Assembly (NCBI GenBank): GCA_021780625.1
Contig: JAJXYI010000595.1
Coordinates: 1-5,817 of the forward strand
Origin: a bacterium
Lineage (GTDB): Bacteria > Verrucomicrobiota > Verrucomicrobiae > Opitutales > Opitutaceae
Length of the DNA stretch: 5,817 nt
Reading direction: 5' to 3'
The number at the start of each line of letters is the position of its first letter. Within the stretch, counting starts at the first letter, position 1. Below the pieces are notes generated by a model, which was given only the letters and a program-made list of their open reading frames with translations, made no database searches and had not been told where the DNA came from. Positions 1-5,817 of this stretch are shown in pieces. The translations under genes were made by a program, and so were the position numbers.

Positions 1-1542
1 CTGATCCGCGACGAGTGTATCGCCTTTGCCAATGCGCGTGCGGTCGAGCTGGTCGGCGTCGCCGCCGACCGGGTGCTCGGCCAGCCGTTCATCCAGTTCG
101 TGCATCCCGACCACCGGGCGGCGGTGCGCGAGAATTATGCGCGGCGCATGGGTGGCGACGAGGCGCCGTATCGCTACGTGACGGCCCTCGTGAATTCGGA
201 GGGGAATCCCGTGCCGATCGAGGCGAGCGGGACGGCGATGATGATCGGCGGCGTCAGGACGAATCTGGTGCTCATTCGCGACATCTCGGCCCGGTTGCAG
301 GCGGAGTCGCACCAGCGCGAAGCAGCCCGGCGGCTGGAAGCGGTGAACCGCCGACTCGAGAAATCCACGGCCCAGGCTCGCGAACTCGCGAGCCGGGCGG
401 AAGAGTCCGACCGCAGCAAGGCGGAGTTCCTGGCGAATGTGAGCTGCGAGCTGCGCACCCCGCTTTCGTCGGTGCTCGGCATGACCGAGCTTCTTTTGTC
501 CGAGGCCTTCGGTCCGGTCAACTGGTCGCAGCGCGAGGCGCTTCAGTCTGTCGACGAAAGCGGTCGGCATCTTCTTGACCTGATTGGCGACATCCTGGAC
601 ATGGCGCGCCTGGAGTCGGGGCATCTGGAGCCCAAGCCGGCCGACGTCGATCTCCACGATTTGTGTGCGGTTTGCATGCGATTCATCGCGCTGCCGGCCT
701 CGCGGAAGGGGGTGAATACCCTGGTGGAATGGCGGGGCGCGCCGGCGCGGGTCTCGGTGGATTCGCGCATGCTTCGGCACATCCTGGTGAATCTGCTCGG
801 AAACGCGGTGAAGTTCACCCCCTCCGGCGGAAGCGTCGCCTTGGTTGTGTCCCAGCAGGCCGGGGACAACGCAATCGACTTCGCCGTGTCGGACACCGGG
901 ATCGGCATCAGCCGCGAGCGCCTGGAGGCGATCTTCGAGCCGTTCGAGTCGGGCGGGCGCGGGGCGGGTCGCGGTGTGGGGCTCGGGCTCACTATGGCCC
1001 GGCGTCTCGCGACGGTGTTGGGCGGAACGCTCATGGCCCGGAGCACGCCGGGGCTGGGAAGCTCGTTTACACTTCGGATTCCGTGTCCCCCGGTGCCTGC
1101 GGAGCCGGCGCCCGCCGTTCCGGCGAACGAATCCCTACTGGGAATGCGCATCCTCGTCGCCGAGGACGAGCCGGTCAGTGCCCGGATGCTCGAACTGCAG
1201 CTGCGGCATGCGGGGGCGGCGGTGACCCTCGCGTCGAACGGACGCGAGGCCGTATCGCGGGCCCGAGCCCGACGCCCGGATGTCGTGCTCATGGACGTAC
1301 ACATGCCGGTGATGGGCGGGATCGAGGCGACCGCCGCGCTGAAGGGGGATCCCTTGACGGCGGGCGTGCCCGTGATTTGTCTGACGGTCCTCGCCATGGA
1401 CGAGGATCGGGACCGCTGCCTTGCCGCCGGCGCGGACGATTTCCTAATCAAACCAGTCGAGATGCGGGCCCTGATCGCAAAACTTCGCCGCCTGCCCGCC
1501 GGATCGAAAAAACCGGAGGACCTGGTCGGCCGCCGTGAATGA
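1..1542 (+). CDS. Hybrid sensor histidine kinase (PAS-HisKA-HATPase-REC), 5'-partial, H-box His replaced by Cys
   Basis: This is the C-terminal part of a two-component hybrid kinase. It is open from the first base, so the start lies upstream; the ATG at 73 is inside the PAS domain and is not the start. Counting residues from base 1: the end of a PAS domain (about 1-98, ending in the usual R-D-I-S at 93-96), a charged coiled-coil linker (about 97-140), HisKA (about 140-208), HATPase (about 254-362), a Pro/Ala-rich linker, and a receiver domain (about 382-495). The ATP-binding boxes look intact: N-box N264 and N268, G1 box D298-T-G-I-G302, F-box F312-E-P-F315, and G2 box G325-V-G-L-G-L. The receiver has the acidic E388/D389, phosphoacceptor D432 in an L-M-D-V-H-M-P motif, T462 and K484, so it should be able to accept phosphate. 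The H-box reads V-S-C-E-L-R-T-P: the expected His is Cys149, while E150 and T153 (the ExxT phosphatase motif) remain. Autophosphorylation on His is therefore not expected at the usual site. It may be a pseudokinase, a phosphatase or a receiver-dependent partner of the next gene. The family assignment is secure; the function and signal are unknown. Confidence 0.95.
   Translation: MIRDECIAFANARAVELVGVAADRVLGQPFIQFVHPDHRAAVRENYARRMGGDEAPYRYVTALVNSEGNPVPIEASGTAMMIGGVRTNLVLIRDISARLQAESHQREAARRLEAVNRRLEKSTAQARELASRAEESDRSKAEFLANVSCELRTPLSSVLGMTELLLSEAFGPVNWSQREALQSVDESGRHLLDLIGDILDMARLESGHLEPKPADVDLHDLCAVCMRFIALPASRKGVNTLVEWRGAPARVSVDSRMLRHILVNLLGNAVKFTPSGGSVALVVSQQAGDNAIDFAVSDTGIGISRERLEAIFEPFESGGRGAGRGVGLGLTMARRLATVLGGTLMARSTPGLGSSFTLRIPCPPVPAEPAPAVPANESLLGMRILVAEDEPVSARMLELQLRHAGAAVTLASNGREAVSRARARRPDVVLMDVHMPVMGGIEATAALKGDPLTAGVPVICLTVLAMDEDRDRCLAAGADDFLIKPVEMRALIAKLRRLPAGSKKPEDLVGRRE
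1515..1542 (+). promoter_or_regulatory. Four-base ATGA stop/start overlap with distant Shine-Dalgarno-like GGAGGA
   Basis: The stop codon TGA (1540-1542) of the first kinase overlaps the start codon ATG (1539-1541) of the second, a classic arrangement for translational coupling. The only good purine-rich ribosome-binding sequence nearby is GGAGGA at 1515-1520, which leaves 18 bases before the ATG, longer than the usual 5-10. The second gene is therefore probably translated mostly by ribosomes that terminate on the first gene and restart, which would tie the amounts of the two proteins together. The overlap is seen directly; the coupling is inferred. Confidence 0.6.
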
Positions 1543-4500
1543 AGCCGTCCTCCGAGCAGCCCTTGAACACCTCCGCCGACGCCCCGGCCGCGCGCGGTTT
1601 CTCGCTTCCCGTGCCTGGGGGCTCGTTCGCGACCGGCTGGCTGGCGTTCGTATTTGCCTATGGCGTGGCGTTGATCGTGAGCGAATCCCTGCGTCCGCCC
1701 ACGGCCCTGTGCTCCCCTGTGTGGTTGCCTGCGGGATTGCTCGTCGCGGTGCTGGTGTCGGCCTCCGAGCGACGGCGTCCCCTGATCCTGGGGACTGCGG
1801 CCGTGCTCGGGTTCCTGTACGCGCTCGGGAAGCGGGACGGCGTCACTCCGGCCCTGCTTGAGACCTTCGGTGGCATCCTCGAGGCCGTCGCCGCGGTGGT
1901 GCTCGCGGGGCTCTGGCAGGGAAGGCGTGGCTCCGGTTCGCGCGGCGGGGCGATCGGGCTTCTGGCCATATCCGCCCTTCCGGGACCCGCCCTCGGGGCG
2001 GCGCTCATCGCGTCCGCGCACCTGCTCTCGCCTGGATCCGGCGGTTATCTTTCCACCTGGCTTGCGCTCTGGTGTCGGGACGTGCTCTCGATCCTCCTGA
2101 TCGTCCCGCTCGCGATGGGAGCGGTTTCCGAGCGCCGGTCCTGGATGGATCTCACGTTTCGCGTGCGGCGCTTGGAGGCGGCCTTGCTGGCGGTCCTGGC
2201 TGCGGCGTCTGCCTGGATCGTCTTTTCGCTGATTCGCGTGGCCGGTACGGAGGTGAAGTTCCTGGCCGTCCCGATTTTCGTCTGGGCCGCGATGCGCTTC
2301 CAGGCCCGTGGCGTGGCTCTCGCCGGCGCGCTGGTGTCGCTGACCGTCTTCGGACTCGCCACCTGGGACCCCGGTGCCGCGGGGGCGTTTGCGCCCGGGC
2401 TGATCGAACTCCTCCAGGTGTTTTTTGTCGTCGCGGTCGCGACCGCGCTGATGATCGCCATTGCCTGGACGGAGTACCAGAGCTCGGCCGGCCGCCTGAT
2501 GCGCCTGCGGGATGCGATGGCGGAGATCGTGGTGACCCTCGAGGTCATGCGCGATGCCTCCGGGGCGGTGGAAGATTTCCTGGTCGTCGACGCCAACCCG
2601 GCGTTCCGCACCGCCTCCGGGAGGCAGGAGCCCGCCGCGTCTGCCGTGCGCCTGTCGGCGTTCATCGAGAATCCTGGTCTTGCCTATGGGCGTGAGGCGG
2701 AGGCGCTGCTCCGGGACCGTCGGCCGAGGCGGCTCGAGGTGCGTTCATCGCGCTCCGGACGTTGGTATCAGGTCTCTGCGTACGTGCCCGAGGACCGCGA
2801 CCGGATCGTCGCCGTGGCCACGGACATCACCCCGGTCAAGGAGCGCGAAGCTGAGGTGCTCCGGCTCTCGCGCCGGTATGAGATCGTGAGCGACGTCAAC
2901 CAGGCCATCGTCCGCTCGGCGTCGCGCGAGGACATGCTCCGCCAGGTCTGCGCCGCGTTGGTCAGGGAGGGTCGGTTCGAGGTCGCGTGGTCCGGGCGGT
3001 TCCGCGGGACGGAGGACAGGCTCGTGCGGGTGGCGTCCGCGGGGGACGAATCCCTGCTGGCGGACCTGCGCGCGCTCGGGCCGGAGGCCGAGGGAATGCT
3101 CGCACGGCGTGCCTTTGAAGTCGGAGGCGTGGTCGCCTGCAGCCGTACCGGCGATGATCCGACCGTGCGCCTCTGGGGCCCGGTGGCGGCCCGTCACGGG
3201 ATTGTCGCGGTGGCCGCCTTCCCGCTTCGCGAGGATGGCCGTGTGATCGGCGCCGTGGCCGTGGGGACGGGGGACGGGCAGGATTTTTGCAGAGAGGAAA
3301 TCGGCCTGTTGGAACAGGTGTCGCAGGATGTGGGATACGCCCTCGACAAGATCCGCAGCGACGAGCTCGGCGCCCAGACCGTCGCCAACCTGCTGGAGAG
3401 CGACCGCCGCTTTCGCGGGCTGTTTGAGCAGGCGCCCATCGCCTACCAGGCGCTCGACATTCGGGGCGTGATCGTCGACGTGAATCCCGCCTGGCTTGCG
3501 CTGTTCCGGGCGACGCGCCCGGAGTCGATCGGGCGCCCCTTCATGGATTTCATGCCGGATGAACATCGTCCGGACTTCATCCGCGGGTTTTCGGCGCTGG
3601 TGTCGGGCGGTGGCGAGCGGGCTTTCGAGATGGCGCTGGCGAGAGAGGACGGCGATCCGTTCTCTGCGCATGTGACGGTCCGGGCCCAGGGGGACCGGGC
3701 GGGCGGTTTCCAGGTGGCCCACTGCGTCATCCACGACATTTCGGAACGCCTTCGCTACGAGCGCTCGCTGCGCGAGGGGGAGGAGCGGATCAAGACGGCC
3801 TTCGAGATCGCAAACGACGGGATCTGGGAGGCGGACCTGAGGACCGGCAAGCTGACGCTGTCGTCCCGGTTCTACACGATGCTCGGCTACGAACCCGGCG
3901 CCTTCGACGAGACGCCCCGTGAATGGATTGACCGGATACACCCGGACGATGTGGCGCGGATCGTGGGCCGCTACCCTGATTTCCTGGCTTCGGCGGAGGA
4001 CTCGTTCGAGATCGAGTATCGCCTGCGGGACCGGGGAGGCGCATGGCGGTGGATCATGGCGCGTGGGCGGGTCGTGGAAAAGGGGCCCGCAGGGGAGAAG
4101 GCCCGCATACTCGGCACCAACAGCGACATCACCGCGCGCAAGCAGTCGGAGCTGGCCCTCCGGCAGAGCGAGCGCCGCCTTGCGCTCGTGATCGAGGGGT
4201 CCGCGCTGGCTGCCTGGGATTGGGATCTTCACAGCAATGAGATTCTCTTCAACGCGTACTGGGCCCGCCTGACGGGAAACGGCGATGCGGAACGCATCCT
4301 TTCCGCCCAGGAATGGCGTACGCTCATCCATACGCAGGATCTCCCTGCGGTGCGATTGGCGTTCGAGGACCACTTGGCGGGCGTGCAGCCCCACTTCGAG
4401 TGTGAATACCGGGTCCGGAAGGGGGACGGGAACTGGGTATGGGTGTACGACCGCGGGCAGGTAATCGCCAGGGATGGCTCGGGCGGGCCGCTGCGCGCCG

Positions 4501-5817
4501 CGGGAACGCTTCGCGACATCACGGACAGGCGGCTGGCCGAGAAGCAGGTGCGCGAGCAGGCGGCACTGCTCGACCAGACTCAGGACATCGTGATCGCAAC
4601 CGACACCGCCGGCCGGGTGCGTTTTGCCAATCGCAGCGCGGAGGTCTTCTTCGGTCCGTCGGAGGAGGGCCTTCACGATCGACGGCTGGCGGATCTGTTT
4701 GAGGGCTCCGAACCCGCGTTCGACGGCGCCGCGATCGAGCGGGTCGTCGCGGACCGTGAGTGGGCGACCGAGGTTCGCCTGGAGAAGGGCTTCCTGAAGG
4801 GGCGCATCCTCGACGCGCGCTGGTCCGTCGTGCATTCGGACGCGGAGTCTCCGGAGCGGCTGCTTCTGGTGTGCACCGACATCACCGACCGCCGGCTGCT
4901 AGAGGCTCGCTTCCTGCGCGCCCAGCGCATGGAGAGCATCGGCTCCCTTGCATCGGGCGTCGCGCACGACCTCAACAACATCTTCCTGCCGATCTCGCTT
5001 GCGGCGCACATCCTCAAGAAATCGCCCCCCGAGGACCAGCGCGCCTCGCTCCATGCGATGCTCGACCAGAGCGCGCAGCGGGGGGCCGATCTCGTCCAGC
5101 AGCTGCTAACGTTCGGCCGCGGCCTCGACGGGCGGCGCGTCGAGCTCCAGCCGCGCATGCTCTTCCACGAGGTGCGCCGGATCATCCGCGAGACGTTTCC
5201 GAAGAACATCGTGTTGGAGACCCGGATACCGGAGGACCTCTGGACCGTCTCGGCCGATCCGACCCAGATTCACCAGGTCCTGCTCAACCTCTGCCTCAAC
5301 GCCCGCGACGCCATGGCGGCGGGCGGCACGCTCTCCCTTGCCGCGGAGAACGTCGTGTTCGACGAGCATTACGCCGCGATGAACCCCGAGGCGGAGGCCG
5401 GCCCCTACGTCATCCTCGAGGTTGTCGACACGGGTGTCGGCATTCCCGCCGACAACCTGGAGAAGATCTTCGATCCTTTCTTCACCACGAAGGAGCCCGG
5501 CGTGGGCACCGGGCTGGGGCTTTCCACGGTCCACGGCATCGTCAAGGGCCACGGCGGTTTCGTCCAGGTCCGCAGCCAGGTGGGCGAGGGCACGCTTTTC
5601 AAGGTGTACCTCCCGGCCATCCCCGCGGTCGTGGAAGTCAGCGAGATCCCGCCGGGCGAGGAGATTCCGACCGGGTCCGGCGAGACGATCCTGGTCGTGG
5701 ACGACGAGGAGGCCGTTCGCGAGACCCTTCGCGACATGCTCGAGAACCACGGCTATCGCGTCATCCTGGCCCCCGACGGCCGCCAGGGTCTCGTCTGCTA
5801 CCAGCAGCAGCGGCAGC
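1539..5817 (+). CDS. MASE1-PAS-GAF-PAS(x4) hybrid sensor histidine kinase, 3'-partial
   Basis: This frame stays open from the ATG at 1539 to the window end (1426 codons, no stop). The start is well constrained: an in-frame TGA (1536-1538) sits directly upstream. Domains by residue: MASE1 membrane sensor (about 30-310), with roughly ten hydrophobic segments and the family's W-L-P-A-G (from W62), W-C-R-D (W178) and W-A-A-M-R-F (W249) landmarks; a divergent PAS (about 326-435, ending T-D-I-T); GAF (about 446-605); PAS (about 618-740); two PAS_3-like domains (about 748-868 and 878-998); a fifth PAS (about 1008-1120); HisKA with phosphoacceptor H1143 in V-A-H-D-L-N-N; HATPase (about 1235-1360) with N-box N1250/N1254, G1 D1297-T-G-V-G, F-box D1312-P-F-F and G2 G1323-T-G-L-G-L; then a receiver from about 1382 with acidic D1388/D1389. 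The window ends before its phosphoacceptor Asp. The protein should sit in the inner membrane, sense through MASE1 and the cytosolic PAS/GAF modules, autophosphorylate on H1143 and pass phosphate to its receiver. D1144 and N1147 fit a DxxN phosphatase motif. The ligand is unknown. Other output domains may follow downstream. Confidence 0.95.
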   Translation, partial: MKPSSEQPLNTSADAPAARGFSLPVPGGSFATGWLAFVFAYGVALIVSESLRPPTALCSPVWLPAGLLVAVLVSASERRRPLILGTAAVLGFLYALGKRDGVTPALLETFGGILEAVAAVVLAGLWQGRRGSGSRGGAIGLLAISALPGPALGAALIASAHLLSPGSGGYLSTWLALWCRDVLSILLIVPLAMGAVSERRSWMDLTFRVRRLEAALLAVLAAASAWIVFSLIRVAGTEVKFLAVPIFVWAAMRFQARGVALAGALVSLTVFGLATWDPGAAGAFAPGLIELLQVFFVVAVATALMIAIAWTEYQSSAGRLMRLRDAMAEIVVTLEVMRDASGAVEDFLVVDANPAFRTASGRQEPAASAVRLSAFIENPGLAYGREAEALLRDRRPRRLEVRSSRSGRWYQVSAYVPEDRDRIVAVATDITPVKEREAEVLRLSRRYEIVSDVNQAIVRSASREDMLRQVCAALVREGRFEVAWSGRFRGTEDRLVRVASAGDESLLADLRALGPEAEGMLARRAFEVGGVVACSRTGDDPTVRLWGPVAARHGIVAVAAFPLREDGRVIGAVAVGTGDGQDFCREEIGLLEQVSQDVGYALDKIRSDELGAQTVANLLESDRRFRGLFEQAPIAYQALDIRGVIVDVNPAWLALFRATRPESIGRPFMDFMPDEHRPDFIRGFSALVSGGGERAFEMALAREDGDPFSAHVTVRAQGDRAGGFQVAHCVIHDISERLRYERSLREGEERIKTAFEIANDGIWEADLRTGKLTLSSRFYTMLGYEPGAFDETPREWIDRIHPDDVARIVGRYPDFLASAEDSFEIEYRLRDRGGAWRWIMARGRVVEKGPAGEKARILGTNSDITARKQSELALRQSERRLALVIEGSALAAWDWDLHSNEILFNAYWARLTGNGDAERILSAQEWRTLIHTQDLPAVRLAFEDHLAGVQPHFECEYRVRKGDGNWVWVYDRGQVIARDGSGGPLRAAGTLRDITDRRLAEKQVREQAALLDQTQDIVIATDTAGRVRFANRSAEVFFGPSEEGLHDRRLADLFEGSEPAFDGAAIERVVADREWATEVRLEKGFLKGRILDARWSVVHSDAESPERLLLVCTDITDRRLLEARFLRAQRMESIGSLASGVAHDLNNIFLPISLAAHILKKSPPEDQRASLHAMLDQSAQRGADLVQQLLTFGRGLDGRRVELQPRMLFHEVRRIIRETFPKNIVLETRIPEDLWTVSADPTQIHQVLLNLCLNARDAMAAGGTLSLAAENVVFDEHYAAMNPEAEAGPYVILEVVDTGVGIPADNLEKIFDPFFTTKEPGVGTGLGLSTVHGIVKGHGGFVQVRSQVGEGTLFKVYLPAIPAVVEVSEIPPGEEIPTGSGETILVVDDEEAVRETLRDMLENHGYRVILAPDGRQGLVCYQQQRQ

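Follow-up and report, generated by a model that had tools for sequence, protein, structure and literature searches.

The first gene of the window, the 5,817-nucleotide stretch of Opitutaceae DNA analysed here, encodes a hybrid histidine kinase with a cysteine in place of the phosphoacceptor histidine; judged from sequence, the protein has most likely become a pseudo-histidine kinase, of a new hybrid form with a single origin in one lineage. The best explanation, held with somewhat more than even confidence, is that its fold and its receiver serve a partner kinase encoded by the overlapping next gene, in a manner that would be DivL-like by convergence. Pseudo-histidine kinases as such are known; new here are the cysteine, a valine at position T+1 of the receiver, a shift of constraint between the domains, and the overlap with the gene of an intact hybrid kinase. 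The histidine is reported to be missing from 722 of 76,471 HisKA domains, or about 0.9% (PMC12632262), and a commentary from 2014 states that few such bacterial pseudokinases had been studied (PMC5361649). The substitutions exemplified in the parts of that commentary considered here are Tyr, Gln, Asn, Arg, and Asp, with no Cys among them, and in a literature search a cysteine H-box was found in no title or abstract opening among the matches listed. In the present case the histidine loss can be placed on one branch with His-bearing controls, the partner gene overlaps, and the shift of constraint from kinase to receiver is measurable. The role of hybrid pseudokinases thereby becomes directly testable with two proteins of one operon.

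The reading frame of the pseudokinase gene runs open up to the 5' edge of the window (Table 1). P0001, a full-length relative of 583 residues, differs from the window protein at 2 of 513 positions, and its numbering is used below unless otherwise stated. An N-terminal hydrophobic helix, which lies outside the window, is taken by eye to be membrane-spanning. Pfam matches HisKA (62.1 bits), HATPase_c, and Response_reg in the translated frame well above their cut-offs, and PAS is matched as well. The structure model (pLDDT 88.6, pTM 0.60) displays helices and strands that fit intact HisKA, CA, and REC folds, while pLDDT falls below 50 at residues 388-392, in the region of the altered ATP lid. Being a HisKA-HATPase protein without the phosphorylatable histidine, the protein is a candidate pseudo-histidine kinase and not a conventional hybrid kinase. 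An earlier note on this DNA had read the same S-C-E-L-R-T-P H-box and TGC codon, with correct coordinates and residue numbers, and had pointed out that a His codon (CAY) differs from TGC by two or more bases, which would dispose of a single sequencing error as the explanation; from CAC the difference is two bases.

Table 1. Features of the pseudokinase gene and of the overlapping partner gene (positions in the window).
Feature	Position	Strand	Remarks
Pseudo-histidine kinase hybrid, PAS-HisKA-HATPase-REC (candidate)	1..1542	+	513 of ~583 residues; 5' end cut by window edge
PAS domain	10..288	+	Window residues 4-96, Pfam
HisKA dimerisation domain, PF00512	418..621	+	Window residues 140-207, Pfam
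H-box S-C-E-L-R-T-P-L, Cys at phosphoacceptor His site	442..465	+	AGC TGC GAG CTG CGC ACC CCG CTT
TGC codon	445..447	+	Window Cys149 = Cys219 in P0001 numbering
HATPase_c domain	760..1086	+	F-box Gln replaced and ATP lid shortened by three residues; N, G1, and G2 motifs present
F-box to G2 stretch with altered ATP lid, FEPFESGGRGAGRGVGLG	934..987	+	Window residues 312-329
Receiver (REC)	1150..1485	+	Window residues Asp432 (1294-1296), Thr462 (1384-1386), and Lys484 (1450-1452) retained
GTC, Val at receiver T+1 (P0001 residue 533)	1387..1389	+	Site-by-site comparison
ATGA overlap of partner start and pseudokinase stop	1539..1542	+	Same overlap in L091
Partner hybrid kinase, MASE1-GAF-PAS-HisKA-HATPase-REC	1539..5816	+	Window end cuts REC
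CAC codon for the partner's phosphoacceptor His, intact in GVAHDLNN	4965..4967	+	Partner residue 1143

Homologues were collected in three protein searches, of which the best 120 of 6,811, 7,819, and 7,834 matches together gave 270 distinct proteins. A motif scan of the first 230 of these best-match proteins found the histidine in 226, the four without it being P0001-P0004. Domain extraction left 250 of the 270 proteins for comparison, as 20 with short or missing domains were dropped. Among these 250 best-match proteins the phosphosite is Cys in P0001, P0002, and P0004, Gly in P0003, which has a Cys one residue ahead of the Gly, and His in all 246 others. Identity is 92% for P0002, 69% for P0003, and 60% for P0004, and the Cys is kept across about 40% divergence. 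P0004 is found letter for letter in genome G514 (locus L091). P0004 has matches at E 1e-95 or better in five of the 252 genomes in the family of genome G175; we take G514 (E 0) and G515 (3e-154) to hold the orthologues, while the other three lie near 1e-100. P0057, a His-bearing relative, is labelled Opitutaceae. A sequencing error or a lone variant can be ruled out, because P0002 and P0004 also carry the Cys and the codon of P0004 reads TGC in its own genome.

A tree of 23 chosen rows unites the four His-less proteins in a single group (100/100), which answers with yes the question raised by the earlier note of whether the Cys is conserved in a clade, P0003 with its Gly being a member of the same branch. 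The 10-row family including six His-bearing members is likewise found at 100/100, and support drops to 82/81 at the fork that joins the His-less group to P0121, P0005, and P0057. The simplest history for these four proteins, two of which are close to each other, would be that the His was lost once, to Cys, which then became Gly in P0003. P0002 and P0003 are known as predicted proteins, the latter from one 3,313-base contig, and the codon data cover the window and L091. P0003 (583 residues) has no PAS match, an H-box that reads SACGEMHMP, Ala for the G1 Asp, and a receiver 96-97% identical to those of P0001 and P0002. In a comparison with P0001, at most about half of its residues are identical as far as residue 320; in blocks of 20 residues, 16-18 are identical between 321 and 460, and 18-20 after that. 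P0003 could mark the final stage of kinase loss or be a mosaic sequence, and exchange, an assembly chimera, or uneven decay may each account for it.

A site-by-site comparison of the four clade members with the 246 other proteins was made for the kinase core. The Glu following the phosphosite (H+1), Pro224, the N-box Asn and Lys, both Gly residues of G1, and the Gly of G2 are kept in all four. P0003 has lost Arg222, Thr223 (now Met), and the G1 Asp, all of which the other three retain. The F-box Gln (Q387) has become Ser, Ser, Ala, and Lys in the clade, while it is Gln in 244 and Arg in 2 of the 246 other proteins. In addition, F385 is Met in P0004, and the ATP lid is three residues short in P0001-P0003. 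ATP binding may persist, given that three of the four retain the N, G1, and G2 motifs, and this speaks against the pseudokinase reading. The kinase had previously been described as otherwise intact, and this holds for the open frame, the N, G1, and G2 motifs, and the catalytic residues of the receiver, but the F-box Gln and the ATP lid are altered and constraint is weaker on the core than on the receiver.

The whole branch lacks the phosphoacceptor His, and on the sequences the usual autophosphorylation of this H-box, and transfer from it, therefore cannot occur. His260 in helix 2 of HisKA was considered as another acceptor and rejected; it is nearly invariant in an alignment of mostly His-bearing relatives, and thus not a substitute, and is Gln in P0003. 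The kept H+1 Glu counts against the pseudokinase reading, as a pure pseudokinase would have no need of it; in CrdS this residue is required for kinase but not for phosphatase activity (PMC3510030). Near the start of the CA region there is a CxxC pair (C292 and C295, window 664-675).

When it comes to domain order, P0005, P0006, P0121, P0122, and the partial P0057 agree with the window protein and, where complete, have 578-592 residues. These His-bearing relatives differ from it in having a SHELRTP H-box, a core that is better conserved than the receiver, and Ala at T+1 (P0057 has no receiver). In the pairs P0121-P0005, P0006-P0122, and P0005-P0006 the HisKA domain is 83, 79, and 76% identical and the receiver 56, 59, and 50%, whereas the His-less pairs P0001-P0004, P0001-P0003, and P0003-P0004 display 72, 43, and 28% identity in HisKA and 75, 96, and 78% in the receiver. 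In these alignments constraint has moved from the kinase core to the receiver within the His-less branch.

The ratio of receiver to core distance was compared at core distances of 0.05-0.5, a range that holds five of the six His-less pairs, with P0003-P0004 outside it. The four of these at core distances of 0.25-0.5 have ratios of 0.679, 0.558, 0.124, and 0.069, all below the minimum of 0.689 among the 10,956 His-His pairs of that range (median 1.04), the pairs having proteins in common and hence not being independent. For the closest pair, P0001-P0002 (core distance 0.08), the ratio is 0.655, and equally low values are found in 16 of 12,207 His-His pairs at 0.05-0.5, three of which reach 0.0. 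ML distances give the same picture. In a column bootstrap the ratio of P0001-P0004 was 0.67 (95% 0.44-0.93) against 2.10, 1.72, 1.34, and 1.18 in four His pairs, values that the P0001-P0004 ratio reached in 0, 0, 2, and 8 of 2,000 bootstraps. The gain in conservation is greatest in alpha4-beta5-alpha5 (residues 537-568), where P0001 and P0004 share 28 of 32 residues and three His pairs 17, 20, and 15. It is less in other parts of the receiver: the remainder has 59 of 84 identical residues against 49, 50, and 44, and alpha1 is no better conserved (6 of 13 against 8, 9, and 6).

Of the 194 fourfold sites in the whole gene, 108 (56%) differ between the window and L091, and by its codons the gene is under purifying selection between the two. 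Four His-less homologues in one branch, together with the codons of the window and L091, show that selection has preserved the gene and that the His loss is no chance lesion. A recent receiver exchange between the window and L091 was considered as the source of the conservation and rejected; 26 of 57 fourfold sites in the receiver differ, so that synonymous divergence there is not low and the likeness of the two receivers does not stem from recent exchange.

The acidic pair, Asp502, Thr532, and Lys554 of the receiver are kept in all four clade members, and with these key catalytic residues in place the domain is not a pseudo-receiver, though T+1 and K-1 are unusual. T+1 is Val in all four and in none of 240 others, which have Ala (232), Gly (5), Ser (2), or Thr (1), six more being gapped at this position. 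K-1 (residue 553, window 1447-1449) is Ile in all four, compared with 2 of 246 others, a second receiver change peculiar to the clade (cf. PMC8510515). The bulky Val suggests that phosphorylation of the receiver is slow or hindered, so that the domain may work partly by conformation. The earlier statement that the receiver residues are present is thus correct for the catalytic ones, but does not cover the Val at T+1.

The partner is well conserved between the window and L091 in HisKA (73 of 75 residues, 97%), CA (146 of 170), and the visible part of REC (41 of 43), and shares 168 of 322 residues in MASE1. At locus L092 of genome G515 the stop codon of the His-bearing P0006 is followed, after a gap of 18 bp and without overlap, by the start of a gene that is cut by the contig end. 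This gene has a GAF match, a MASE1 match below the cut-off (20.8 of 29.8 bits), and 190 of 585 aligned residues in common with the partner in the window. Because P0006 thus has a similar next gene, the pairing of the two genes probably predates the His loss, as far as this one His locus can tell. That the two proteins work together is inferred from gene order alone, at two Cys loci and one His locus. The partner from L091 matches 5idj first in the PDB (159.9 bits) and gives 116.2 bits with 5idm, which is named CckA; 5idj, which is listed under the name Histidine kinase, is also CckA. Orthology of the partner to CckA was nevertheless dropped, as for a control hybrid kinase from L091 the same two structures come first (5idj, 168.7 bits) and third (5idm, 99.6 bits). 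The resemblance is thus unspecific and places the partner in that broad kinase type. Behind the partner, L091:15789-19568 encodes an ATGA-overlapping ORF of 97 amino acids without Pfam match, a PAS-HisKA-HATPase kinase, and a REC-PAS-PAS-HisKA-HATPase-REC hybrid, which together make up a series of signalling genes.

DivL had been named in the earlier note as the precedent for a non-His H-box, and it is the right one. DivL has been described as having no kinase or phosphatase activity and as regulating CckA (PMC4211667, PMC5361649, PMC9430884). It resembles the window protein in its HisKA-HATPase fold, non-His phosphosite (Tyr550), and PAS input, and it works with a hybrid kinase, CckA; a DivL homologue with Ala at the phosphosite (PMC4211667) parallels the Gly in P0003. 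A search with the family profile finds the DivL structure 4q20 at E 2.4e-46, and among the matches to the predicted fold this structure stands at ranks 29 and 34. Unlike DivL, which is made up of PAS domains and a kinase module without receiver (PMC4211667), the window protein has a receiver of its own, Cys for Tyr, a gene that overlaps that of its presumed partner, and nearest relatives that are His-bearing. These relatives belong to Verrucomicrobiota, while DivL is alphaproteobacterial, and the likeness is convergent, not orthologous.

The first solved-structure match, both by profile and by fold, is the Caulobacter hybrid kinase ShkA (6qrj), in which a kinase core is likewise followed by a receiver; TM-scores of 0.29 and 0.35 indicate that the domain placement differs. 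ShkA is an active kinase held off by a pseudo-receiver. In the window protein the receiver keeps the catalytic residues and the kinase does not. RocA, a streptococcal pseudokinase, can be likened to it by description, being a non-catalytic kinase-like membrane protein that acts on the sensor kinase CovS, reportedly through its N-terminal transmembrane part (PMC7380576).

The pseudokinase reading proposed earlier is most likely right, and the protein could then act as a phosphatase, as an allosteric partner, or through a receiver that another kinase supplies, or its gene could be decaying. The allosteric partner is favoured because conservation is higher in the receiver than in the core, a strongly conserved kinase is encoded by the overlapping gene, and DivL and RocA provide precedents. 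The protein would probably be a membrane-anchored, PAS-gated partner of the overlapping hybrid kinase that dimerises through its HisKA fold. Phosphate would reach its receiver, if it does so at all, from the partner kinase, either directly or by way of an HPt, and the receiver might report to or restrain that kinase; it would be the main functional surface, with the alpha4-beta5-alpha5 face as a putative binding site. Such an arrangement would be convergent with the control of CckA by DivL, where Tyr takes the place of His. Cys219 is most likely a tolerated filler that cannot be phosphorylated and has no catalytic part. The best leads to the mechanism are two features that the earlier note does not mention, the translational coupling with the gene of an intact hybrid kinase and the Val at T+1. 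As a tentative extension, more doubtful than the reading itself, the change of His to Cys and that of a small residue to Val at T+1 on the same branch could have produced a phosphorylation-poor or phosphorylation-independent switch, in which the alpha4-beta5-alpha5 face of the receiver, and not kinase activity, controls the co-translated kinase. If true, this would be a hybrid pseudokinase in which the one-time output domain has become the principal functional part.

A dedicated phosphatase, in which only the Thr223-dependent reaction of HisKA is kept and acts on the partner receiver or another regulator, is a rather unlikely alternative. Phosphatase activity was part of the earlier proposal, and P0001, P0002, and P0004 could have it, as Thr223, Arg222, and Pro224 are kept there, but not P0003 with its Met at 223. 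The precedents diverge: CrdS H371A loses kinase activity and just part of its phosphatase activity, while PleC H610A lost both (PMC3510030), DivL has neither (PMC4211667), and phosphatase activity has been argued to be no general function of pseudo-histidine kinases (PMC12632262). A phosphatase would also have no use for the kinase-only Glu at H+1, kept in all four proteins, and would leave unexplained why the protein's own receiver is its best conserved part. That conservation (75-97% identity within the branch, catalytic residues kept) likewise makes it improbable that the gene is simply in decay, with the His loss as the first step of inactivation and no role left. P0003 looks most like such a case: it has no PAS match, its HisKA domain scores 29.3 bits where the window protein reaches 62.1, and both its H-box and its G1 motif are broken. 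The constraint on core versus receiver is also weaker in the branch than in the relatives. Nevertheless, the frame is open in both the window and L091, 62% amino-acid identity is retained despite 56% of fourfold sites having changed, and both loci have kept the overlap with the partner.

A chemical switch, with Cys219 as a phospho-cysteine or as a redox or metal sensor, perhaps together with C292 and C295, is very improbable. Cys is kept in P0001, P0002, and P0004 over their divergence, and the CxxC pair is invariant in 10 of 10 family members. However, these ten include the His-bearing relatives, so the pair is not tied to the change from His to Cys, and P0003, inside the branch, has Gly at the site and its Cys one residue earlier. 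The redox and phospho-cysteine ideas of the earlier note are therefore disfavoured.

On the minus strand of the window, antisense open frames of 492 and 696 amino acids are found at 543-2021 and 2745-4835; these are probably due to the high G+C content.
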